Positions 1 through 14,742 of a stretch of DNA of 64,000 bases are shown in pieces. The translations under genes and the position numbers were made by a program. Origin of the DNA: Clostridiales bacterium (GTDB taxonomy: Bacteria > Bacillota > Clostridia > Oscillospirales > Oscillospiraceae). The stretch covers positions 1-64,000 of the forward strand of contig JAJQCW010000033.1 in assembly GCA_021202515.1 (NCBI GenBank), written 5' to 3'. Position 1 is the first letter of the stretch; every line of letters starts with the position of its first letter. The notes below the pieces were generated by a model, which worked only from the letters and a program-made list of their open reading frames with translations, did not search any database and was not told the origin of the DNA.

Positions 1-80
1 CGCTCCCCAGAACCGGAACTTTTCCAGTCCGATTGTCGGGGTTTTGCCGGGTTTTGACCCGCTCTCCTGAGCGCTTGGTT

Positions 81-3977: not shown

Positions 3978-5051
3978 GTGCAGAGGCAGCGGAAACGGCG
4001 GCCACCCCGACGGGATGTCGGGCACGAGAAAAAACGGCCCTGGATGCGAATTGAATATCTGCTGTGTGGCATTGCTCTGCTCTTTGCCCTCCACATGACC
4101 GGCGCGGCGGTCAGCCGAGTGACCTACGCCGTGGGAGAAGCCGCCCGGGACGCGGCGGAGGCCGAGGCCAACGAGCCGGAGTACGTCACCTTTATCCGGG
4201 GCGTGGTCAAGCACGTCGTCGAAGAGGAGAGCGAGGACGAGACCGATGAAGCAACGACAGTGGAGGAGATCGAGGTCGATATCACCCAGTTCGCCGGGGA
4301 CAGCGGTTATGCCGGAAAGATCTACGCTCTGCTGAACGAGTACCCCGACCAGGTGGAGACCATCCTCTCCTATTACGAAAACGCAACCTTGACCGTGGGC
4401 GGCCAGCAGACCACCATGGGAGAGCAGAGCGAGGACGCCATTCCGGAGCGACTGCTCCAGTTGGTCATCAATAACATCGAGACCATCGACTTTGTGGCCG
4501 ACTATCCGGCCAACCACGACCAGGACGTGAAGATCGACCTGAGCGCGGAGGCCAAGAGCGACGAGGTTCCCCTTTTGCTCCAGTGGGACGAGCGCTGGGG
4601 CTATGAAGAATACGGCGACGGTCTGCTGGGCTACACCGGCTGCGGCCCCACCTGCCTGGCGATGGTGGCCCTGTACCTGACCGGCGACGGGGATATCACC
4701 CCTCTGACAGTGGCCAACTACGCTGACCAGGCGGGGTACTACACCGACGGTGTCGGGTCCGCCTGGACGCTGATGAGCGAGGGCTGTGCGCATTTTGGCC
4801 TGACCGGTACGGAGATGTATGTCTCTGAGAGCGACATGGTGGAGATGCTGGAGGCGGGCCACCCGCTGATTTGCGCGGTGGGGCCGGGCGATTTCACCGC
4901 CTCCGGTCACTTTATCGTCATCTACGGCTACAGCGACGGGGCATTCCTGGTCAACGACCCCAACAGCCTGATTCGCAGCGGCCAGACCTGGAGCTATGAG
5001 ACGCTCAGCAGCCAAATAAAAAACATTTGGTATTATTCTGTCGAAAAATAA
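3978..5051 (+). CDS. Membrane-anchored C39-like peptidase
   Basis: This is a 357-residue type II membrane protein. A basic N-terminus (about 1-24) precedes one transmembrane helix (about 27-50). An acidic linker (about 70-110) follows, then an extracellular papain-like domain of the Peptidase_C39_2 type. The catalytic Cys is visible in GYTGCGPTCLAM and the catalytic His in ASGHFIVIYGY, followed by FLVNDPN. The family includes bacteriocin and signal-peptide processing proteases and cell-wall-associated enzymes; the substrate cannot be told here. The start is GTG after GTGAGGGG. It has its own promoter and is followed at 20 bases by the lyase gene. No bacteriocin gene is adjacent. Confidence 0.82.
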   Translation: MQRQRKRRPPRRDVGHEKKRPWMRIEYLLCGIALLFALHMTGAAVSRVTYAVGEAARDAAEAEANEPEYVTFIRGVVKHVVEEESEDETDEATTVEEIEVDITQFAGDSGYAGKIYALLNEYPDQVETILSYYENATLTVGGQQTTMGEQSEDAIPERLLQLVINNIETIDFVADYPANHDQDVKIDLSAEAKSDEVPLLLQWDERWGYEEYGDGLLGYTGCGPTCLAMVALYLTGDGDITPLTVANYADQAGYYTDGVGSAWTLMSEGCAHFGLTGTEMYVSESDMVEMLEAGHPLICAVGPGDFTASGHFIVIYGYSDGAFLVNDPNSLIRSGQTWSYETLSSQIKNIWYYSVEK

Positions 5052-5071
5052 CAAAAAGTTGAGGAAAACGG

Positions 5072-6109
5072 ATGCTGCATTTTGAATGTGATTACGCGGA
5101 AGGGGCGCACCCCCGTATTTTGGAACGCCTGCTGGAGACTAATCTGGAGCAGACCGACGGCTACGGGATGGACCCCCACTGTCAGCGAGCCAGAGAGCTG
5201 ATTTTGGCCCAGTGCCAGGCCCCTGACGCCGACGTTCACTTTTTGGTGGGCGGCACCCAGGTGAATACCGCCATTATCGCCGCAGGGCTGCGGCCCTGGC
5301 AGGGGGTGCTCTCCGCCGCCAGCGGCCACATCAATGTCCACGAGACCGGCGCGGTGGAGGCCACCGGCCACAAGGTCCTCGCCCTTCCCCACCGGGACGG
5401 CAAGGTGCGCGCTGCGGCCATCGAGCGGGCCATCAGCGACCACTACGCCGACGGCAACGCCGAGCATATGGTGCAGCCGGGGATGGTTTACCTGTCCAAC
5501 CCCACGGAGTACGGCACCCTCTACACCAAAGCGGAGTTGACCCAAATCAGCCAGGTCTGCCGCAAGTGGCACGTCCCCCTCTACGTGGACGGGGCCAGGC
5601 TGGGCTACGCCCTGGGCGCAGAGGGCAACGACCTGTTCCTGCCCGATTACGCTGCACTGTGCGACGCCTTCACCGTCGGCGGCACCAAGGTAGGGGCGCT
5701 GTTCGGAGAGGCGCTGGTCATCACCGACCCGGCTCTGAACCGGGATTTCCGCTATACCATCAAGCAGCGGGGCGGGATGCTGGCCAAAGGCCGTCTGCTG
5801 GGTATCCAGTTTGAAGTGCTCTTCGAGGATGGGCTGTACCAGGCCCTGGGAGAAAAGACGGACCGCCAGGCCATGGCCCTGCGCCGGGCCTTCGAGGAGA
5901 AGGACTGCGCCATGCTGCTGGACTCCCGCACCAACCAGCAGTTTCCCATTCTGTCCCGCGCTCAGCAGGCGGCGCTGGCGGAAAAATACCAGTTTTCCTA
6001 CTGGGAGCCGGTGGAGGAAGGCCGGGACGCGGTGCGGTTTTGCACCAGTTGGGCCACCACCGATGAGGCGCTGGAGCAGCTCATCGCGGATGTTCAGACG
6101 AAATTGTAA
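5072..6109 (+). CDS. ltaE: Low-specificity threonine aldolase-like PLP enzyme
   Basis: The 345-residue product belongs to the beta-eliminating lyase/threonine aldolase family of fold-type I PLP enzymes, which cleave L-threonine or related beta-hydroxy amino acids to glycine and an aldehyde. Visible landmarks are HINVHETGAVE, VYLSNPTEYGTLY, the aspartate in PLYVDGARLGYAL and the PLP lysine in FTVGGTKVGALFG (about 211). RBS GAGGAAAA precedes the ATG. It probably shares the promoter at 3913 and ends at the strong hairpin at 6116. The exact substrate is uncertain, since the close relatives are annotated only as aldolase or aminotransferase. Confidence 0.85.
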   Translation: MLHFECDYAEGAHPRILERLLETNLEQTDGYGMDPHCQRARELILAQCQAPDADVHFLVGGTQVNTAIIAAGLRPWQGVLSAASGHINVHETGAVEATGHKVLALPHRDGKVRAAAIERAISDHYADGNAEHMVQPGMVYLSNPTEYGTLYTKAELTQISQVCRKWHVPLYVDGARLGYALGAEGNDLFLPDYAALCDAFTVGGTKVGALFGEALVITDPALNRDFRYTIKQRGGMLAKGRLLGIQFEVLFEDGLYQALGEKTDRQAMALRRAFEEKDCAMLLDSRTNQQFPILSRAQQAALAEKYQFSYWEPVEEGRDAVRFCTSWATTDEALEQLIADVQTKL

Positions 6110-6115
6110 TAAAAA

Positions 6116-6149
6116 GTGTGGAAACGGGGCAATGTCCCCATTTCCACAC
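6116..6149 (+). terminator. Terminator after the aldolase gene
   Basis: GTGTGGAAA-C-GGGG, loop CAATGT, then CCCC-A-TTTCCACAC form a near-perfect 13-bp stem. The following tail is CTTTC, so the T-run is weak, but the stem is very stable. Confidence 0.75.
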
Positions 6150-6213
6150 CTTTCAAAATGTTTCTGTGAAATTCCTGTTGTCAGGCTTGGCTTGAAGTTT
6201 CCAAAACCCGGCG

Positions 6214-6242
6214 TTGACAAAGCCCCTGAAATCACCTATAAT
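6214..6242 (+). promoter_or_regulatory. Perfect consensus promoter, antisense RNA copy A
   Basis: TTGACA (6214-6219), a 17-base spacer and TATAAT (6237-6242) match the sigma-A consensus at all 12 positions. No plus-strand gene lies downstream; the product would be the short RNA at about 6249-6341. The same promoter occurs in copy B at 11103-11131. Confidence 0.85.
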
Positions 6243-6248
6243 ATAAAT

Positions 6249-6341
6249 AGAAAACGGGCGCTGTCCGACAACGGTTAGCCCAGCATCAGGTTTTTATGTT
6301 TAAGAAACCGTCACTTGGCAGAGTGGCGGTTTCTGCGTTTT
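6249..6341 (+). ncRNA. Candidate antisense antitoxin RNA, copy A
   Basis: The predicted RNA of about 93 nt runs from the perfect promoter to the terminator GAAACCG-T-CACT, loop, AGTG-G-CGGTTTC (6304-6333), followed by TGCGTTTT. Its 5' part holds GGGC, an inner stem around GTCCGAC, and GCCC, giving a hairpin. The 3' third is complementary to the last codons of the peptide gene on the other strand (6311-6388). The 5' region is conserved in copy B nearly base for base. The end points are estimated, and transcription is inferred from sequence only. Confidence 0.6.
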
Positions 6342-6388
6342 ACGATGATCGTCACCGTATAGGCTCCGATATGTAAAGTAATCCGCAT
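6311..6388 (-). CDS. 25-residue peptide, candidate type I toxin, copy A
   Basis: This is a very short gene, not a known family to me. The peptide begins MRITLHIGAYTVTII, a mostly apolar stretch, and ends in a strongly basic tail with KRRNRH. The ATG at 6388 is preceded by AAGGGGGTGAT, an almost complete match to the 16S anti-Shine-Dalgarno. That site can be hidden in a CCCC-GAAAA-GGGG hairpin. Copy B at 11205-11282 encodes the same residues 1-22, with seven silent and no replacement changes. Only the last three residues differ, where the gene overlaps the terminator stem. Small size, hydrophobic-plus-basic make-up and a convergent RNA resemble Fst, TxpA or BsrG toxins. Toxicity is inferred. 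Confidence 0.65.
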   Translation of the reverse strand: MRITLHIGAYTVTIIVKRRNRHSAK

Positions 6389-6465
6389 AGCATCACCCCC
6401 TTTTCGGGGAGTGGCCAACCGCCGCCGTAATGGACAACGCCCTAACTCCATCAGGAGCTATCCAC

Positions 6466-6494
6466 AGAATACCACAGATTTTTGCAAAAAGCAA
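6466..6494 (-). promoter_or_regulatory. Promoter of the peptide mRNA, copy A
   Basis: On the minus strand TTGCTT (-35, 6489-6494), 17 bases, then TATTCT (-10, 6466-6471), preceded by TGTGG, an extended -10. The same layout is kept in copy B although flanking bases differ. The mRNA would start near 6459, with a 5' leader of about 70 nt before the ATG. Confidence 0.55.
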
Positions 6495-6498
6495 CCAA

Positions 6499-6536
6499 AA
6501 GCGTGAGCCGACCCGTTTCCAGGTCAGCCCACGCTT
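6499..6536 (-). terminator. Terminator of the flavodiiron gene
   Basis: On the minus strand AAGCGTGGGCTGACC and GGGTCGGCTCACGCTT pair around TGGAAAC, and are followed by TTGGTTGCTTTTT. It ends transcription from 6563-7726. It lies directly upstream of the peptide promoter of copy A. Confidence 0.75.
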
Positions 6537-6562
6537 GTTTTGTGTGGTAATGTGGGTTTTGT

Positions 6563-7726
6563 TTACTTGCTCAGCAGCGCATCGACCATGGCTTCCATGT
6601 CCTTCACAGTGCTCTCCTTCATGGTGGAGCGGATGGAGACCAGCGGCTCTACCACGGTGCAGTTCTTGAACCCGTCGGCGTAAGCCTTCATCAGCCGCCC
6701 GGCGGCAGGCGCCCAGGAGCCGTTCTCCATGATGCCGATGGTGCGCTTCTGGTAGTTCTTGACCTTCAGGTGATAGAGGAAGTCCTCCATGCAGGGGAAC
6801 AGAGAGGCGTCGTAGGTGGGGGCGGCCAGAACCAGCTTGTCATAGCGGAAGGCGTCCTCGACGGCCTCGGACATGCTGTCCCGGGCCAGGTCGAACACGG
6901 AGACCTTCTGGCCCTTGCTCTCCAGCATTTCCGCCAGCTTCTTGGCGGCGATGGCGGTGTTGCCGTGGATGGAGGCATAGGCCAGGGTCACGCCCTCGTC
7001 CTCCGGGCGATAGCTGGACCAGATGTCATACTTTTCGATGTAATAGCCCAGATTCTCCATCAAAATGGGGCCGTGGAGGGGGCAGATGGTCTGGATGTCC
7101 AGCTTGGCGGCCTTTTTCAGCAGGGTCTGGACGGAGGGGCCGTACTTGCCCACGATGTTGAAGTAGTACCGGCGGGCTTCACAGGCCCAGTCCTCCTCCA
7201 CGTCCAGCGCGCCGAACTTACCGAAGCCATCGGCGGAGAACAGCACCTTTTCGGTGGATTCATACTCCATCATGACCTCCGGCCAGTGGATCATGGGGGC
7301 CATGATGAAGGTCAGGGTGTGGCTGCCCAGGGAGAGGGTATCCCCCTCCTTGACGGTCATCGTCCGGGGAGAGAAGTCCATGGTGAAGAACTGGGGCAGC
7401 ATCTGGACGGCTTTGGCGCTGGCCACCACCTGCATGGCGGGGTACTTTTCGCACAGGCGCTGGATGTTATAAGCGTGGTCCGGCTCCAGGTGGGACACCA
7501 CCAGATAGTCCGGGGTGCGGCCTCCAAGCTCCCGTTCCAGGTTGGCGAACCACTCCTCGCTGACCCGGCGGTCCGCCGTGTCCATCACGGCGACTTTTTC
7601 GTCCAAAATCAGATAGGAGTTATAAGAAACGCCGTTGGGGACGGGGTATTGGCTCTCAAACAGGTCGATCTTGTGGTCGTCACACCCGATGTACCGGATG
7701 GCGTCAGAAATGGTAACGTTGCTCAT
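6563..7726 (-). CDS. fprA: FprA-type flavodiiron protein
   Basis: Flavodiiron proteins reduce O2 to water or NO to N2O and protect anaerobes from oxidative or nitrosative stress in the cytosol. The 387-residue product has a metallo-beta-lactamase-fold diiron domain (about 1-250). Ligands are visible in HLEPDH (79-84), in MIHWPE, in FSADGFG and in PLHGP. A flavodoxin domain (about 255-387) follows, with the FMN loop YASIHGNT and a GSWAPAAG segment. No rubredoxin or flavin-reductase domain is fused. RBS AAGGAGG precedes the ATG at 7726. It lies 48 bases after comF on the same strand, but also has its own promoter. Confidence 0.95.
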   Translation of the reverse strand: MSNVTISDAIRYIGCDDHKIDLFESQYPVPNGVSYNSYLILDEKVAVMDTADRRVSEEWFANLERELGGRTPDYLVVSHLEPDHAYNIQRLCEKYPAMQVVASAKAVQMLPQFFTMDFSPRTMTVKEGDTLSLGSHTLTFIMAPMIHWPEVMMEYESTEKVLFSADGFGKFGALDVEEDWACEARRYYFNIVGKYGPSVQTLLKKAAKLDIQTICPLHGPILMENLGYYIEKYDIWSSYRPEDEGVTLAYASIHGNTAIAAKKLAEMLESKGQKVSVFDLARDSMSEAVEDAFRYDKLVLAAPTYDASLFPCMEDFLYHLKVKNYQKRTIGIMENGSWAPAAGRLMKAYADGFKNCTVVEPLVSIRSTMKESTVKDMEAMVDALLSK

Positions 7727-7768
7727 GGCTTTGTCCTCCTTATGAGAGAATTACAGTTCTACAAAAAG

Positions 7769-7797
7769 ACTATATCACATTTTACCGCCGTTGTCAC
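7769..7797 (-). promoter_or_regulatory. Promoter of the flavodiiron gene
   Basis: On the minus strand GTGACA (7792-7797), 17 bases, TATAGT (7769-7774). It overlaps the 3' end of comF. Confidence 0.5.
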
Positions 7798-8509
7798 CCA
7801 TCGTTTCACGATTTCCGCCCGTTTTCCCCACCCGGCCATAGGCGCTCCGGGCCAGGGTCAGACAGCAGATCTCCGCGGCTCCGGCCCGCCGCAGCACGGC
7901 GCTGGCCTCCTCCAACGTCGCGCCGGTGGTGATGACATCGTCTACCAGCAGCAGGCGTTTTCCCTCCAGAGGAACGCCGGATTTTGGACGGTAGACGCCC
8001 CGGACGTTTTCCCACCGCTGGGCGGCCTGTTCCGTGCCGGACTGAGGCGGCGTGTGGCGGAATTTCACCAGCGTCCGCTGGAGTGGCAGACCGCTGGAGC
8101 GGGACACGGCCAGCGCCAGCCGTTGTGCCTGGTCGTATCCCCGGCGCTGCCGCCGCCAGAAGCTCAGCGGCGCCCAGGTAATGCAGTCGAAGCGGGAATA
8201 GTCCGGGTCGTTGGCTTGCAGACAGTCCCACATCCACTCGCCGAAGGCCCAACTGTAGTGCCAGTGGCCCAGAAACTTGTAGCGGTGAAAAGCGGGCTTG
8301 AACGCCTCGGTGTAGTAGAGAGGCGAAAGACAGTGGTCAAAGTGAATCCCCTGCTGGGCGCAGTCCTCCCCGGTCCAGGGGACCAGTGACGCACAATCAG
8401 CGCAGAGCAGCGTTTCCCCTTCCTCCAGCGGACGCTGACAAAACAGACACTTGGATGGCCAGAGAAAATCTTTGACCAGCGCACCGGCACGGCGCAGATT
8501 TTTCACCAT
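7775..8509 (-). CDS. comF: ComF family phosphoribosyltransferase-like protein
   Basis: ComF-family proteins take part in DNA uptake during competence in Bacillus and have a type I phosphoribosyltransferase fold; their exact reaction is not settled. The 244-residue product has an N-terminal zinc motif, CLFC and CADC (about 18-37). The PRPP-binding loop LLLVDDVITTGAT lies near residues 183-195. RRRGYDQAQRLA and the region ending GKTGG are also typical. I choose ATG 8509, just after GGGGAGAGAGG; the open frame upstream has no family similarity. No other competence gene is in the window. Confidence 0.88.
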   Translation of the reverse strand: MVKNLRRAGALVKDFLWPSKCLFCQRPLEEGETLLCADCASLVPWTGEDCAQQGIHFDHCLSPLYYTEAFKPAFHRYKFLGHWHYSWAFGEWMWDCLQANDPDYSRFDCITWAPLSFWRRQRRGYDQAQRLALAVSRSSGLPLQRTLVKFRHTPPQSGTEQAAQRWENVRGVYRPKSGVPLEGKRLLLVDDVITTGATLEEASAVLRRAGAAEICCLTLARSAYGRVGKTGGNRETMGDNGGKM

Positions 8510-8620
8510 AAGCCTCTCTCCCCTTGCCGCTTTTCCATAGTATGACAGGATTCGACAAGGTTTGCAAGGGAGATGGGACAAAATTACCGGTTTGTGGCGA
8601 CAGGAAAGGTGAAAATTCCC

Positions 8621-8650
8621 TTGACTTCCCATAGGGAGGGGAATTATAAT
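8621..8650 (+). promoter_or_regulatory. Promoter of the riboswitch-antiporter unit
   Basis: TTGACT (8621-8626), 18 bases, perfect TATAAT (8645-8650). Transcription would start near 8657, at the base of the riboswitch. Confidence 0.7.
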
Positions 8651-8654
8651 AGCT

Positions 8655-8815
8655 GCGAAGTAAAGGGGAGTAGTTTGCACCGCCCAGGCGGTGCGGCGCG
8701 GCTCGTCAGCTCGTGTCGGGAGGGGTTCCCGAAACCGGGCCGCGCCCAGGGCTTTTGTCTGGAAACGAGACTTTTGCTGTGCGTTTTCACGTGCGGCGGG
8801 GGTCCCGCTTTTTTT
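8655..8815 (+). promoter_or_regulatory. yybP-ykoY (Mn2+) riboswitch with terminator
   Basis: The leader begins with the class hallmark AAAGGGGAGTAG (8662-8673). It continues with GGCTCGTCAGCTCG, a GGGAGG-GGTT-CCC type arm and closes near CTTTTGC (about 8772-8778). This fits the yybP-ykoY class, which senses Mn2+ and activates transcription of metal exporters. An intrinsic terminator GCGGG-GGT-CCCGC with seven T residues lies at 8796-8815 as the expression platform. I recognised it by sequence signature; the fold was not computed. Confidence 0.85.
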
Positions 8816-8854
8816 ATGACCCCGCATGATTCCATCACGAAAGAGGTCTTATTT

Positions 8855-9826
8855 ATGTTGATTCCGGTTCTGCTGTTTGCCGTCGGTCTGGTGCTGCTCA
8901 TCAAGGGCGGAGACTGGTTCGTGGACGGAGCCACGGGCATTGCCCGCCGGTTCCGTCTGCCGGAGCTGCTGATCGGGGCCACGGTGGTCTCCATCGGCAC
9001 CACCCTGCCGGAGGTTATGGTGTCTACCACGTCGGCGCTGTCCGGTCACAGCCAAATCGCCTACGGCAACGCCGTGGGTTCTGTCATCTGCAACACGGCG
9101 CTGATCGCCGCCCTGACCATCGCCGTCCGCCCCACAGAGGTGGATACCCGGACGCTGCGGACGCCGGTGGCCTTCTTCTTCGCGGCGGCGGCGTTTTACG
9201 CGGTGGTGGCCTACACCACCGGCGAGTTCAGCCGCATGGCGGGCGTACTGCTGCTGGTGTTCTTCGTGGTCTACATGGTGCTGACGGTGCATGAAATGAC
9301 CGGCGGCCCCCAGACCGCCCCCCAGCCGGGGGAAAAGATTCAGGAAGAGACCTCTCTGTGGCGGCTCATCTTCCTGCTGGCGGTGGGGGCAGCGCTGATC
9401 GCCGTGGGTGCGGACCTGCTGGTGGACAACGGCACCCTCATCGCCCAGGCGCTGGGCGTGCCGGAGTCGGTCATCGCCTTGACGCTGGTGGCCCTGGGGA
9501 CCTCTCTGCCGGAGCTGACCACCGCCATCACTGCCCTGGCCAAGGGCCACAGCGCCCTGTCTCTGGGCAACATCATCGGGGCCAACCTGTTCAACCTGGT
9601 GCTGGTCAGCGGTACGGCTGTGACCCTCTCCCCTTTCCACATCCCGGAGAACAGCACCCTGTTCGGCATCAACAGCTCGCTGGTGGTGGACCTGCCGGTG
9701 ATGCTGCTGGTCATGCTGATTCTGACTGTGCCGACTTTGAAACGGGGCAGGCTGACCCGCGCCCAGGGGGTCACGCTGCTGGCGATCTACACGGCGTTCT
9801 GCGTGTATCAGTTTACGATGGGATAA
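8855..9826 (+). CDS. Calcium/sodium antiporter, CaCA family (YrbG-like)
   Basis: The 323-residue product is an integral membrane cation exchanger with about ten helices in two inverted repeats. Each repeat has the family's ion-binding motif: GATVVSIGTTLPEVMVS in the first half and LTLVALGTSLPELTTA in the second. The conserved GNAVGSVICN and GNIIGANLFNLV follow them. I choose ATG 8855 after AAGAGG; an ATG at 8817 is less likely. The yybP-ykoY riboswitch upstream suggests that this member exports Mn2+, or exchanges it along with Ca2+. A terminator follows at 9845. Confidence 0.9.
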   Translation: MLIPVLLFAVGLVLLIKGGDWFVDGATGIARRFRLPELLIGATVVSIGTTLPEVMVSTTSALSGHSQIAYGNAVGSVICNTALIAALTIAVRPTEVDTRTLRTPVAFFFAAAAFYAVVAYTTGEFSRMAGVLLLVFFVVYMVLTVHEMTGGPQTAPQPGEKIQEETSLWRLIFLLAVGAALIAVGADLLVDNGTLIAQALGVPESVIALTLVALGTSLPELTTAITALAKGHSALSLGNIIGANLFNLVLVSGTAVTLSPFHIPENSTLFGINSSLVVDLPVMLLVMLILTVPTLKRGRLTRAQGVTLLAIYTAFCVYQFTMG

Positions 9827-9844
9827 CATGATAAAGCGTAAAAA

Positions 9845-9880
9845 AGGGGGCTGTACCTGCGGCGTGCGGGTACAGCCCTT
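9845..9880 (+). terminator. Terminator after the antiporter gene
   Basis: AGGGGGCTGTACC and GGGTACAGCCCTT pair around a TGCGGCGTGC loop and are followed by TTC. It is the only feature I see between 9827 and 9969. Confidence 0.75.
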
Positions 9881-9969
9881 TCAAATGGTTTTAGGGATGG
9901 AAGAAGTTCAATTTTCTGGCGTATAATCAGCCCGATGCCTTGATAAAGCTCAAACTACTATACCTGTTG

Positions 9970-10497
9970 TTAAAGAACGATAATGACGCTTGTCGATAAA
10001 TATTTGTTTGCGTCCGTTGTTTTGATCCACGCGAACTTGTATCCGCCGCTGATCGGGTACTTCACCTGGGTGTAGCTCCCCTTCGTGCCGAGTACCGTAA
10101 CTTTATCATACTTGCTGATGGAGCCGTAAGTTTTCGCGGTGCTGTTTCGGCGGTAAGTCGTGATCTTCTTCGTGGCCCATTTCGTTTTTCCTGTCGAAGA
10201 AAGAACGATCTTGCTCTTGGAGATCCAGCCGGTCTTTCTGCCGCTGGAAGTGGGGTAGGAAACCTTGATGCTGTTGGGATAACTGCTGGACGTGGCCACA
10301 ACGTACAATTCGTCAGAGGCGTAAATCGTGCCGGATTTCGTTTTTAGGCTGGCAGAACTGTAAGCGGTAGTGTTGCCGGAGGAGATGGTGTAGCACCGGA
10401 TGGTCGAGCTTGCGGCGTTGGCCGGAACCACCAGCATGGCGGCAAACGTCGCGGCAATCAGACAGAGGGACAGGAGCTTTTTCAGCTTTTTCTTCAT
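9970..10497 (-). CDS. Secreted protein with bacterial SH3-like repeats
   Basis: The 175-residue product starts with a signal peptide: a lysine-rich N-terminus, an apolar core (about 10-28) and a cleavage region PANAASS. The rest is Ser, Thr, Lys and Tyr rich, with two SH3b-like units (about 32-105 and 106-175). Each has the pattern of a variable loop, GTI/GSI, a tyrosine-rich strand and a final GW or AW, as in GRKTGWIS and GGYKFAWI. Such domains bind cell-wall peptides or glycans, but no catalytic domain is attached. ATG 10497 follows AAGGAGGT. The promoter lies within a 16-bp inverted repeat (10573-10613) and the gene is divergent from an XRE regulator. Confidence 0.75.
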   Translation of the reverse strand: MKKKLKKLLSLCLIAATFAAMLVVPANAASSTIRCYTISSGNTTAYSSASLKTKSGTIYASDELYVVATSSSYPNSIKVSYPTSSGRKTGWISKSKIVLSSTGKTKWATKKITTYRRNSTAKTYGSISKYDKVTVLGTKGSYTQVKYPISGGYKFAWIKTTDANKYLSTSVIIVL

Positions 10498-10567
10498 GAT
10501 GGTAAACCTCCTTATTTTCTTGGGCGTGGATGGATGGGATGGGAAAGGTTGGTTTCCTGCTAATGCC

Positions 10568-10613
10568 AGTATAGTACATAAATTTACTTGTGTCAATAGT
10601 AAATTTATGTACT
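10568..10613 (-). promoter_or_regulatory. Promoter embedded in a 16-bp perfect inverted repeat
   Basis: On the minus strand TTGACA (10591-10596), 17 bases, TATACT (10568-10573). The arm AGTACATAAATTTACT (10573-10588) fills the spacer, and its exact inverse AGTAAATTTATGTACT (10598-10613) lies just upstream of the -35. A protein bound to both arms would cover the promoter. The divergent XRE gene at 10765 is the obvious candidate regulator, by inference. Confidence 0.75.
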
Positions 10614-10764
10614 AAAAAATTTTCTTACAAAGAGGATTGTACGGCGCATAAAAGGAGAAAGAGTTCGAATAGCGGCTCTTTTAATAAAAATCTGTATTAA
10701 AACCTTAGTAAAAATTTGATTTAGGCTAGACTATTTTCATCCCTTCCCCGATGGAGATGAAAAA

Positions 10765-11007
10765 ATGAAGCCTATGTCTTATGTCCGGCGCATCCGTGAC
10801 CTGCGGGAAGACCACGACTATACACAGGAGTACGTCGCCAAAAAGCTGGGCACCTCTCAGACCATGTACGCCAGATATGAGCGGGCCGCCAATGAACTGC
10901 CGATTCATCACCTGTTGACGCTTTGTGAGTTGTATCACGTTTCAGCGGATTATATTTTGGGCTTGACGGACGAACCAGGCCCCTCCTCTGCGAAGGACTG
11001 CCGCTGA
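10765..11007 (+). CDS. XRE family helix-turn-helix regulator
   Basis: The 80-residue protein is essentially one lambda-repressor-like DNA-binding domain (about 6-68). IRDLREDHDYTQEYVAKKLG and TSQTMYARYERAANELP cover the helix-turn-helix, and LTLCELYHVSADYILGLTD is the usual C-terminal helix pair. There is no sensor domain. The start at 10765 follows GATGGAGATG; an internal ATG at 10774 is possible. Upstream (10614-10764) is AT-rich, and I could not find a convincing promoter. It is divergent from the SH3 gene, whose promoter carries a matching palindromic operator. Confidence 0.88.
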   Translation: MKPMSYVRRIRDLREDHDYTQEYVAKKLGTSQTMYARYERAANELPIHHLLTLCELYHVSADYILGLTDEPGPSSAKDCR

Positions 11008-11102
11008 AATGGATGAAAAGCGCGGAGAGAGGTTTTCCCCTTTCCGCGCTTTTCCGCTTGTTCTCAAAATTCTCTTTTACTGGAATTTGAAAACTCCCAG
11101 CG

Positions 11103-11131
11103 TTGACAAAACCAGAGAGATGAGGTATAAT
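11103..11131 (+). promoter_or_regulatory. Perfect consensus promoter, antisense RNA copy B
   Basis: TTGACA (11103-11108), 17 bases, TATAAT (11126-11131), again 12 of 12. The spacer sequence is unrelated to that in copy A, while the boxes and spacing are identical. Confidence 0.85.
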
Positions 11132-11137
11132 ATGAGC

Positions 11138-11235
11138 ATAGAAAACGGGCGTTGTCCGACAACGGTTAGCCCGGAAAAGGTTTTATGTTTCTATAGAGAA
11201 ACCGTCACCTGCCGGGGTGGCGGTTTCTGCGTTTC
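11138..11235 (+). ncRNA. Candidate antisense antitoxin RNA, copy B
   Basis: The predicted RNA of about 98 nt has the same plan as copy A. The 5' hairpin includes the 13-base near-palindrome GTTGTC-C-GACAAC between GGGC and GCCC. A variable middle follows, then the terminator GAAACCG-T-CACC, loop, GGTG-G-CGGTTTC (11198-11227). Relative to copy A one stem pair changes from T-A to C-G, a compensatory change. The 3' part is complementary to the end of the peptide gene 11205-11282. Confidence 0.6.
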
Positions 11236-11282
11236 ACAATAATCGTCACCGTATAGGCTCCGATATGCAAGGTGATTCGCAT
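11205..11282 (-). CDS. 25-residue peptide, candidate type I toxin, copy B
   Basis: This is the second copy of the short peptide gene. Residues 1-22 are identical to copy A, although codons 2, 3, 4, 5, 14, 15 and 16 differ at the third base. The end is PGR instead of SAK. The ATG at 11282 follows AAAGGGGGTGTT, with the site enclosed in CCCC-GATAAA-GGGG, so only the loop differs from copy A. The TGA lies in the shared terminator stem. It sits between the XRE gene and the pckA terminator. I do not recognise the family. Function as a membrane-acting toxin is inferred from architecture. Confidence 0.65.
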   Translation of the reverse strand: MRITLHIGAYTVTIIVKRRNRHPGR

Positions 11283-11361
11283 GGCAACACCCCCTTTATC
11301 GGGGAGTGGCTAACCGCCGCCGTAATGGACAACGCCCTAACTCCAATTAGGAGCTAACAGT

Positions 11362-11390
11362 ACAATACCACAGCTTTTTACAAAAAGCAA
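11362..11390 (-). promoter_or_regulatory. Promoter of the peptide mRNA, copy B
   Basis: On the minus strand TTGCTT (11385-11390), 17 bases, TATTGT (11362-11367), with TGTGG before the -10 as in copy A. The mRNA leader contains GGGCGTTGTCC (complement at 11327-11337), identical to the 5' region of the antisense RNA of this copy. Confidence 0.55.
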
Positions 11391-11414
11391 CAAAAAACCT
11401 CAGACAGCCAGAAC

Positions 11415-11447
11415 AAAGGCCCCCGGCGCGCTGCGCCGGGGGCCTTT
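11415..11447 (-). terminator. Terminator of pckA
   Basis: AAAGGCCCCCGGCGC and GCGCCGGGGGCCTTT form a perfect stem of about 15 bp around a short loop, with T-runs on both strands. It can act in both directions and separates pckA from the copy B locus. Confidence 0.9.
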
Positions 11448-11480
11448 TACGTTCGCTTATGCAGTCAAGCGCAGTTCAGC

Positions 11481-13085
11481 TTAGAGCTGAGGACCGGCGG
11501 CCACCAGGCTCTTGCCCAGGTCGTTGGTCTGATACTTGACGAAGTTGTTGATGAAGCGCTGAGCCAGATCCTTGGCCTTCTCCTCCCACTGGGAAGCGTC
11601 GGCGTAGGTGTCGCGGGGGTCCAGGATGGCGGGGTCAACGCCGGGCAGCTCGGTGGGGACCTCCAGGTTGAAGTAGGGGATCATCTTGGTGGGAGCGCCG
11701 TTGATGGAGCCGTCCAGGATGGCGTCGATGATGCCGCGGGTGTCCTTGATGGAGATACGCTTGCCGGTGCCGTTCCAGCCGGTGTTGACCAGATAAGCCT
11801 TGGCGCCGCTCTTCTCCATGCGCTTGACCAGCTCCTCACCGTACTTGGTGGGATGCAGCTCCAGGAAGGCCTGGCCGAAGCAGGCGGAGAAGGTGGGGGT
11901 GGGCTCGGTGATGCCGCGCTCGGTGCCGGCCAGCTTCGCGGTGAAGCCAGACAGGAAGTAGTACTGAGTCTGCTCCGGGGTCAGGACGGAGACAGGAGGC
12001 AGCACACCGAAGGCGTCGGCGGACAGGAAGATGACGTTCTTGGCGGCGGGGCCGGCGGACACGGGGCGCACGATCTTCTCGATGTGGTCGATGGGATAGG
12101 ACACGCGGGTGTTCTCGGTGACGCTCTTGTCGGCGAAGTCGATCTTGCCGTTCTCGTCCAGAGTGACGTTCTCCAGCAGGGCGTTGCGCTTGATGGCGTT
12201 GTAGATGTCAGGCTCGGACTCCTTGTCCAGGTTGATGACCTTGGCATAGCAGCCGCCCTCGAAGTTGAACACGCCGTTGTCGTCCCAGCCGTGCTCGTCG
12301 TCGCCGATCAGCAGACGCTTGGGGTCGGTGGACAGGGTGGTCTTGCCGGTGCCGGACAGACCGAAGAAGATGGCGGTGTTCTCGCCGTTCATGTCGGTGT
12401 TGGCGGAGCAGTGCATGGCGGCCACGCCCTTCAGGGGCAGGTAGTAGTTCATCATGGAGAACATGCCCTTCTTCATCTCGCCGCCGTACCAGGTGTTGAT
12501 GATGACGGACTCGCGGCTGGTGATGTTGAAGACAACGGCGGTCTCGGAGCGGAGGCCCAGCTCCTTGTAGTTCTCCACCTTGGCCTTGGAGGCGTTGTAG
12601 ATCACGAAGTCAGGCTCGAAGTTTTCCAGCTCCTCAGCGGTGGGCTGGATGAACATGTTCTTGATGAAGTGAGCCTGCCAGGCCACTTCCATGATGAAGC
12701 GGATGGCCATGCGGGTGTCCTTGTTGGTGCCGCAGAAAGCGTCCACCACGAACAGGCGCTTGTTGCACAGCTCGTCCTTGGCGATCTTCTTGACGGCGGC
12801 CCAGGTCTCCTCAGAGGCGGGGTGGTTGTCGTTGGGATAGCCCTCGGTGGTCCACCAGATGGTGTCTTTGGAGTTCTCATCCATGACGATGTACTTATCT
12901 TTAGGAGAACGCCCCGTGTAGATGCCGGTCATGACGTTGACAGCGCCAAGCTCGCTGACCTGGCCCTTTTCAAAGCCCTCCAGATCGGGCTTGGTCTCTT
13001 CCTCAAAGAGCATTTCGTAAGAGGGGTTGCGGACGATTTCTGTGGTTCCGGTGATGCCATACTGGGTCAAATCAATGTTTGCCAT
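11481..13085 (-). CDS. pckA: Phosphoenolpyruvate carboxykinase (ATP)
   Basis: PckA interconverts oxaloacetate plus ATP with PEP, CO2 and ADP. In anaerobes it often runs toward oxaloacetate for succinate formation or anaplerosis. The 534-residue product has the normal family length. It carries [11 protein letters not shown] (substrate), the kinase-1a P-loop [13 protein letters not shown] (about 243-255), the metal motif LIGDDEHGW and [27 protein letters not shown] precedes the ATG. It is a single-gene unit with its own promoter and a strong terminator. Confidence 0.97.
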
Positions 13086-13144
13086 ATTGCGTCTCTACCT
13101 CAGCTTTCTAGTAATTTTAGGTGGGCCACGTTAGCCCTGCTATA

Positions 13145-13174
13145 GTTATATAACAGAAAATGTCCCGCTGTCAA
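13145..13174 (-). promoter_or_regulatory. Promoter of pckA
   Basis: On the minus strand TTGACA (13169-13174), 18 bases, TATAAC (13145-13150); TATATA three bases upstream is an alternative -10. The stretch 13175-13322 behind it is AT-rich, with nothing else recognisable. Confidence 0.6.
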
Positions 13175-13322
13175 GCAGAATGTGGATTCTGGTCTAATTT
13201 TTTACGGTTTTCTTTCGTCCCTCGATGGAAATGAAGGGAAAACTTCATTCTTTTCTATGGTTCAGGGAAAAACTGCAATTTTTCGGTGATATTCAAAAAG
13301 AAAAAATACACAAAAAGTTCAA

Positions 13323-13363
13323 AAAACCGCCTGACTTTTTTGGTAAAAAATCAGGCGGTTTTG
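13323..13363 (-). terminator. Terminator of eno
   Basis: AACCGCCTGA and TCAGGCGGTT form a perfect 10-bp stem, with A/T runs in the loop and on both flanks. It serves the eno transcript on the minus strand. Confidence 0.8.
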
Positions 13364-13395
13364 GTGGTAGGTCCAATGTGCAGGTTTCGCTGGAA

Positions 13396-14742
<1,347 letters not shown>

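Follow-up and report, generated by a model that had tools for sequence, protein, structure and literature searches.

What kind of element is carried twice in the first 64,000 nucleotides of contig JAJQCW010000033.1 (assembly GCA_021202515.1) of a Clostridiales bacterium of the Oscillospiraceae, the stretch of DNA analyzed here and hereafter called the window? The two loci in question, at 6211-6499 (copy 1) and 11100-11395 (copy 2), are 84% identical to each other and encode a peptide of only 25 residues. We propose, with a probability of about 0.74, that both copies belong to a new family of type I toxin-antitoxin-like modules, in which the two ends of the toxin messenger RNA (mRNA) would be clamped together. 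On comparison with described systems, the best reading places the module nearest to TxpA/RatA and BsrG/SR4 in its geometry, with a clamp resembling that of hok and AapA. The peptide module is widespread in bacteria of this kind.

A first-pass annotation had described both copies as a 25-codon open reading frame (ORF) on the minus strand, preceded by a strong Shine-Dalgarno (SD) sequence and faced by a perfect plus-strand promoter, all of which is borne out by the sequence. The ORFs, each followed by a stop codon, lie at 6311..6388 (MRITLHIGAYTVTIIVKRRNRHSAK) and 11205..11282 (MRITLHIGAYTVTIIVKRRNRHPGR) of the minus strand, as also supported by profile search and codon comparison, and the same SD context, AAAGGGGGTG, precedes the two. 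The convergent promoters, at 6214..6242 and 11103..11131 on the plus strand, read TTGACA-17-TATAAT in either copy (12/12 to consensus) and were found by a scan of 6100-11500 that returned eight promoter-like sites, against 2.3 +/- 1.5 in shuffled sequences; the site of copy 2 also emerged from the family-wide scan considered below. The seven silent codon differences that had been counted are present at codons 2, 3, 4, 5, 14, 15 and 16, and the last three codons encode differing residues in the two copies. The ends given to the loci in that annotation, 6494 and 11390, correspond to the -35 element of a candidate weak sense promoter that it did not name. This minus-strand element reads TTGCTT-17-TATTCT at 6466..6494 and TTGCTT-17-TATTGT at 11362..11390; it was read directly from the sequence, and the copy 2 element recurs in similar form in the genus alignment but is absent from the promoter-scan list of 6100-11500.

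Is it the peptide that is maintained? We found 219 distinct loci encoding it, chiefly in Oscillospiraceae-type gut Clostridia (near-identical strains being entered separately in this count), and their 202 distinct frames give the consensus MRITLHIGAFTVTIIVKSRNRHSAK, with a longer start, MPITLTFHI..., also frequent. Over 1566 pairs of these frames at 3-15% divergence, the ratio of nonsynonymous to synonymous changes (dN/dS) is 0.12 (pS 0.34, pN 0.052), and the frame has its normal length in 194 of the 196 units that were identified solely from their N-terminal motif, SD and antisense promoter, the other two being open and either shorter or longer. By codon comparison, then, the loci show a peptide under purifying selection, and the many copies with silent divergence that the annotation had named as a supporting sign do exist. 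The core of the peptide alternates hydrophobic and polar residues, with a mean moment of 0.46 at beta angles and 0.19 at alpha angles (108 cores; 0.26 at beta angles after shuffling), so that its pattern appears beta-strand-like rather than that of a clear transmembrane helix. A variant with a longer, different C-terminus is found at locus L159, where it measures 39 aa, and at other loci of the same genome, G203, in which several matches span residues 1-16 or 1-17 only.

Which RNA would act on its message? The opposite strand was scanned up to 180 nt past the stop codon for the best TTGACA-16..18-TATAAT match, four of the 219 loci being dropped for short flanks. At least 10 of the 12 consensus bases are present in 208 of the 215 remaining loci (12 in 140, 11 in 54 and 10 in 14; the other seven have 7-9), at a median distance of 100 nt between the -35 element and the stop. 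The sense strand of the same stretch, taken as control, peaks at 8 and attains at least 10 in 18 of 215 loci, and shuffles average 7.8. These sequences show a conserved placement of the antisense promoter, from whose retention in 208 of 215 loci we infer a cis antisense RNA that would overlap the mRNA. In the window, the promoters and hairpins predict such a plus-strand RNA at 6249..6344 and at 11138..11238, the latter of about 100 nt with a 5' hairpin and a terminator hairpin (z = -3.2). The putative terminator is a palindromic hairpin across the stop codon, at 6304..6333 in copy 1 (sequence, genus alignment and fold) and 11198..11227 in copy 2 (sequence and comparative folding), where it is followed on the plus strand by a weak U tract, TGCGTTTC, within codons K17-R18. 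With the stem of this supposed terminator spanning the stop codon, the U-rich stretch that follows it is complementary to the codons immediately before it in the ORF (Val-Lys-Arg in the window copies, Asn-Lys runs in a second peptide type presented below), and the antisense RNA may thus in part impose the basic C-terminus of the peptide. The SD core itself is found in a local hairpin in 192 of the 203 loci with a GGRGG core, against 100 of 203 after shuffling of the sequence upstream of the SD, and GAAA is the commonest loop. In copy 1 this minus-strand hairpin lies at 6394..6413 (sequence and fold); in copy 2 the minimum free energy (MFE) structure encloses GGGGGTG (11288-11294) in a hairpin at 11288..11308 of the minus strand, CAC-U-CCCC / GGGG-GUG with loop GAUAAA. 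An antisense promoter placed to overlap the 3' part of the mRNA, combined with an SD in a short helix, reproduces in sequence and prediction the arrangement typical of TxpA and BsrG.

How far does the mRNA extend, and what does its 3' end do? The predicted mRNAs of the window, whose ends are deduced from the signals described, occupy 6250..6459 and 11141..11355 (about 215 nt) of the minus strand and fold end-to-end, with MFE of -93.3 kcal/mol (z = -6.6) and -96.4 kcal/mol (z = -6.4), respectively; in copy 2 the ends would be joined by about 25 bp. The pairing involves a leader element at 6413..6442 (sequence and fold) and 11308..11337 (covariation and fold) and a tail element at 6256..6281 (sequence, scan and fold) and 11147..11172 (scan, covariation and fold), all on the minus strand. 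The tail of copy 1 comes with a terminator-like hairpin and that of copy 2 is followed by the terminator-like CGTTTTCTAT. Read on the plus strand, the tail is the antisense 5' element, which in copy 2 is a copy of the leader. These two elements are more alike within a locus than between loci: the median local score is 10.5 within loci, 7.0 between loci and 6.0 after shuffling (203 loci, with 16 of the 219 dropped for short flanks or a promoter below 10), and therefore the leader would be complementary to the tail of its own mRNA, if the mRNA extends there.

The differences between leader (L) and antisense 5' element (A) are informative as well. Those that keep a G-U pair in the mRNA (L=T/A=C, 102; L=G/A=A, 211) exceed their opposites (18 and 40), or 313 against 58 over 193 distinct leader/antisense pairs, and the asymmetry is also seen in 78 clusters (41+74 = 115 against 10+19 = 29, with 74 transversions). 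Inverted repeats that flank a core of about 190 bp, in a sequence that is multicopy and of which several copies lie at contig ends, also recall a small mobile repeat with terminal inverted repeats and a passenger frame, of the kind called miniature inverted-repeat transposable elements. We regard this as very improbable, since the repeats lie inside both promoters and not outside them, diverge between loci while matching within each with an asymmetry of G-U type that RNA pairing explains, and accompany a frame under coding constraint, and since an orthologous site is occupied.

The outer part of the pairing of leader and tail was recovered by RNAalifold, which was given no prompt and returned the outer leader:tail helix from the first 70 of 112 representatives. 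In the structure that we named, 93.3% of cells are paired, against 36-56% in slid controls, and 128 cells carry double changes, against 33.3 in shuffled alignments (0/500), although the covariation columns are not mutually independent. Double changes occur at nine of the nine pairs of the outer helix, and MFE structures contain at least 10 leader:tail pairs in 194 of 203 loci, compared with 147 of 203 when the tail of a random other locus is supplied. For the outer helix, covariation of this kind shows a closure of the 5' and 3' ends comparable to that of hok and AapA; the inner helices are weaker. One could instead suppose an mRNA that stops, like that of par/Fst, at the shared hairpin in the centre, the repeats being protein operators or gene-converted and no clamp being formed. 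Indeed, the central hairpin is the best paired of all helices (helix 4; 98.6% of cells, with double changes at 5 of 11 pairs) and could stop transcription in both directions, and the U content after it, 3.4/9, is close to the 4.4/9 after the tail. Neither a DNA operator nor gene conversion would be expected to leave the G-U asymmetry of leader and tail, however, and the tail hairpin with its U run is terminator-like in both window copies, whereas the central hairpin is not listed as such; we therefore consider this reading distinctly unlikely and retain that of an mRNA clamped end to end.

Does this RNA framework belong to one peptide? Two further types of peptide, variant B (MTTSEVLQLLLVIISACSLVIQSYNNKK, MVTYSELFQLLMFLVAFAGLILQLSKRK and others) and variant C (MWRDRGKQFLRFLVWTVILTCILSIKAR and others), are encoded by units having promoter, leader, tail and hairpins in the same positions as the units of the window peptide, here type A. 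The window's genome (G000) has at least four units of variant B, which are of transmembrane type and Hol_Tox-like, on contigs C61 (L012), C20 (L014), C32 (L013, with a diverged leader) and C33 (L015); units of variant C are found at L184, L186, L187, L196, L068 and L234, and two of its members searched in Pfam matched no family. The best variant B peptide approaches Hol_Tox with E 1.6e-4 and 21.9 bits, below the cut-off of 23.3, the others giving E 0.1-0.3, no match or weak SLATT_6 matches. On contig C61, where units of types A and B lie 400 bp apart, identity is 79 of 90 bases in the stretch that surrounds the antisense start, against 45 of 87 for the ORFs in global alignment. The 14 folded units of the two variants (9 B and 5 C) form 16-32 leader:tail pairs, which is a description and not a test because the units were chosen by the likeness of their leader and tail. 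At the level of sequence, these units show an RNA chassis common to other hydrophobic peptides.

The situation at the aldolase site of copy 1 (window 6110-6562, L269-L274) adds to this picture. A unit is present in the window's genome and in five of five close relatives (90-97% aldolase identity) having enough downstream sequence, a further relative having 63 bp; none was found at 14 distant orthologues (48-61% identity), four of which have less than 550 bp available. Three of the six genomes carry MRITLHIGAYTVTII and three MPITLTFHILQWTVTIRVTKRNRHRAG, one of the latter as a tandem pair; by this comparison the peptide type differs among close species at one orthologous site. A wider proposal follows, which we advance tentatively and to which we give somewhat less than an even chance: an undescribed chassis of gut Clostridia, consisting of an end-clamped mRNA and an antisense RNA started from its 3' end, may have acquired toxic peptides of three or more unrelated kinds, swapped in place between close species, one of them being the first type I toxin to act as an amphipathic beta strand instead of a transmembrane helix. 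What the units have in common looks to be the regulatory RNA and not the toxin, and this gives a means of finding type I modules, which are otherwise hard to detect because their peptides are short and unrelated. Covariation is evidence of an end-to-end mRNA clamp in gut Clostridia and, if the peptides are toxic, the switch of peptide at a fixed site would allow a direct test of toxin replacement on a constant control unit.

Is the peptide a toxin at all? The annotation had likened it to small membrane toxins, a comparison that suits the hydrophobic peptides in the shared chassis, whereas the window peptide is not a clear transmembrane helix. According to PMC8309996, a transmembrane alpha helix is usual, if not universal, in membrane-acting type I toxins, and the beta pattern, if the peptide is toxic, would depart from this rule. 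The lack of a clear helix, and a fixed location next to a gene of housekeeping type, seen in the window's genome and in each of the five close relatives with enough sequence, would suit a non-toxic small peptide under antisense control (a membrane-active regulator, a signal or an antimicrobial precursor) or a dual-function RNA, with no toxin-antitoxin pair. We judge this unlikely, albeit worth keeping in view, given the Hol_Tox-like hydrophobic peptides in the same chassis, the antisense promoter that is perfect in 140 of 215 loci and suggests a product needing restraint, and the units found in tandem arrays and on phage contigs. More than one distinct peptide unit is present in 19 of the loci fetched, and 19 IMG/VR contigs have a peptide match; the 25-aa query has no match at E <= 1 among INPHARED phages. 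A unit at 5001-5075 of L259 lies in a clear phage contig, between tail genes and the tape-measure gene, upstream of the latter.

How would a type I module of this form operate? In the model that we infer for transcription, the ends of both RNAs, antisense action, 3' trimming, toxicity and target, a weak minus-strand promoter would give rise to an mRNA of about 210 nt for the 25-residue cationic peptide. Its 5' leader would pair with its own 3' tail over about 25 bp and a local hairpin would hide the SD, and because of these two structures the full-length mRNA is predicted to be closed to translation. An antisense RNA of about 100 nt, complementary to the 3' half of the mRNA and terminating within the last ORF codons, would be made from a much stronger plus-strand promoter at the end of the mRNA; the 5' end of this RNA necessarily copies the leader and so it would compete with the leader for the tail. 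The duplex would most likely be cut (by an activity of RNase III type) and/or hold the SD closed. Should antisense synthesis fail or the locus be lost, mRNA opened, for instance, by 3' trimming might be translated, and the peptide would then harm the cell, probably at the membrane.

Among known systems, TxpA/RatA and BsrG/SR4 of Bacillus subtilis resemble the window loci in their convergent genes, in an antisense RNA over the 3' part of the mRNA and in an SD held in a short helix; moreover, the SR4 promoter is stronger than that of bsrG, and SR4 makes a further contact with the 3' part of bsrG helix P1 (PMC7430163). The window peptide differs in being unrelated (unmatched in Pfam and NCBIfam at E <= 1), shorter (25-28 vs 38-59 aa) and beta-like in pattern, and the loci differ in a predicted antisense RNA that lies wholly within the mRNA, from its 3' end, and in their locus-matched inverted repeats. 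With hok/Sok and AapA/IsoA they share an mRNA closed by long-distance pairing of both ends together with local hairpins masking the SD. The antisense RNA of hok/Sok and AapA/IsoA faces the leader or start region, whereas that of the window loci would cover the 3' half, and the peptides are unrelated. Translation of the full-length mRNA in those systems requires 3' processing, and the clamp is described for AapA3 and hok (PMC6733600). The annotation had also offered Fst/par as a model, and here it did not hold. The par locus of pAD1 and the Fst/Ldr group do resemble the window loci in convergent promoters, a small peptide with charged tail, an SD hairpin and a shared palindromic hairpin (PMC7472228), but the DNA repeats of par are direct, letting the antitoxin cover the start site, whereas those of the window are inverted; the window loci are therefore not of Fst type, their leader and antisense 5' end being alike and cognate duplexes no better than foreign ones, and the Fst toxin sequence is likewise lacking (no Pfam match at E <= 1). 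Hol_Tox (PF16935) is approached by some variant B peptides of the chassis and not matched by the window peptide. A search of 4000-14000 against Rfam gave nothing above any gathering score.

Several observations weigh against the reading of a clamped toxin module. The sense promoter is weaker, with at least 9 of 12 consensus bases in 135 of 211 loci and 7/12 in the window copies. The SD hairpin is predicted in both RNA forms and so does not explain how translation would open. Foreign pairings of leader and antisense element are also asymmetric (70.5 vs 46.2), so that the G-U bias is partly compositional, and strand-biased C-to-T mutation could add to it. RNAalifold has the inner tail paired with the SD region in place of the inner leader, and in such a variant the SD would be covered by the tail; the inner helices of the structure that we named have few double changes, at 1 of 5 pairs and at 2 of 3, and 81.8% of cells are paired in one of them. 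The U content after the tail hairpin is only modestly higher than after the central one (the antisense average being 2.8 per 9), so that the mRNA end at the tail is a tentative placement. A duplex between the antisense 5' end and the leader was dropped as the main contact because cognate pairs are no better than foreign ones (medians of -32.2 and -31.8, with -28.8 for shuffled). Best 15-residue hydropathy is 1.3-1.4 for the window peptide vs 2.3-2.7 for variants B and C, making it the less hydrophobic. At E <= 1 the peptide is unmatched in Pfam, NCBIfam, PHROGs and PADLOC and, as a profile, among solved structures; what a relative's peptide matches, it matches weakly (PHROGs E 0.48; Pfam YrzI E 0.06). 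Beyond the 196-unit filter, at least two copies, L029 and L154, have a broken C-terminal frame and are candidate decayed units, so that broken frames in conserved DNA, named in the annotation as the sign to look for against the peptide, proved rare and not absent. What stands of its toxin-antitoxin assignment is a selected peptide, an SD hairpin, a conserved convergent promoter, many often-tandem copies and a shared chassis; the Fst-type par locus falls away.

The YrzI match covers 12 residues of the relative and is a lead only, no title or abstract opening among the papers listed for it giving a toxin-antitoxin link. Among the papers listed in searches on the peptide, no title or abstract opening describes it, and none of five peptide strings was found in full texts of papers, subscription papers and preprints lying outside the scope of these searches.

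How far do units with the window peptide extend? The window's genome holds four copies, two on contig C28 and one each on C20 and C61, and a DNA search gave matches in 16 of the 32 genomes of the genus, its own included. A profile built from seven peptides gave 114 matches at E < 1e-3, distributed over 54 of the 250 genomes of the family; none of these matches contains an in-frame stop, and 10 span fewer than 21 of the 25 positions. At E <= 0.05 the count is 97 of 250 genomes, the surplus being mostly matches of 12 residues (3-14) that fall within long frames. For the order, E <= 5e-4 is reached by 16 of the 295 genomes sampled: three are of the same family, eight others (G277, G375, G388, G413, G528, G540, G545 and, more weakly, G488) are real or plausible and the remaining five are taken as chance. 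Of the eight matches among 391 genomes of the class sample, only the genome of the window is convincing; the others were rejected as relatives, six being residues 3-14 within frames of 691-1128 aa and one a match of 14 residues. Among the best 80 of 183 relatives in a scan of named genomes, titles are mostly Oscillospiraceae, Oscillibacter, Clostridiales and similar, together with Agathobaculum, Yanshouia, Clostridium porci and bins titled Lachnospiraceae, Eisenbergiella and Acetatifactor. Several relatives' copies sit at contig ends, and for this reason assemblies seem to break at the repeats and copy numbers may be underestimated. On the replicon of Vescimonas fastidiosa, whose gene table is incomplete, no gene is annotated under the peptide match.

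As to their surroundings in the window, copy 1 lies between two genes that end at 6109 (aldolase-like) and at 6563 (flavodiiron-like), and copy 2 adjoins a phosphoenolpyruvate carboxykinase-like gene ending at 11481, all three named from their translations. A small ORF on the plus strand (10765-11007), helix-turn-helix-like as judged from its translation, lies immediately upstream of copy 2. On the minus strand, 9970-10596 encodes a secreted-looking protein with segments that appear repeated by eye, and a near-consensus promoter-like site is found at 10596-10568.

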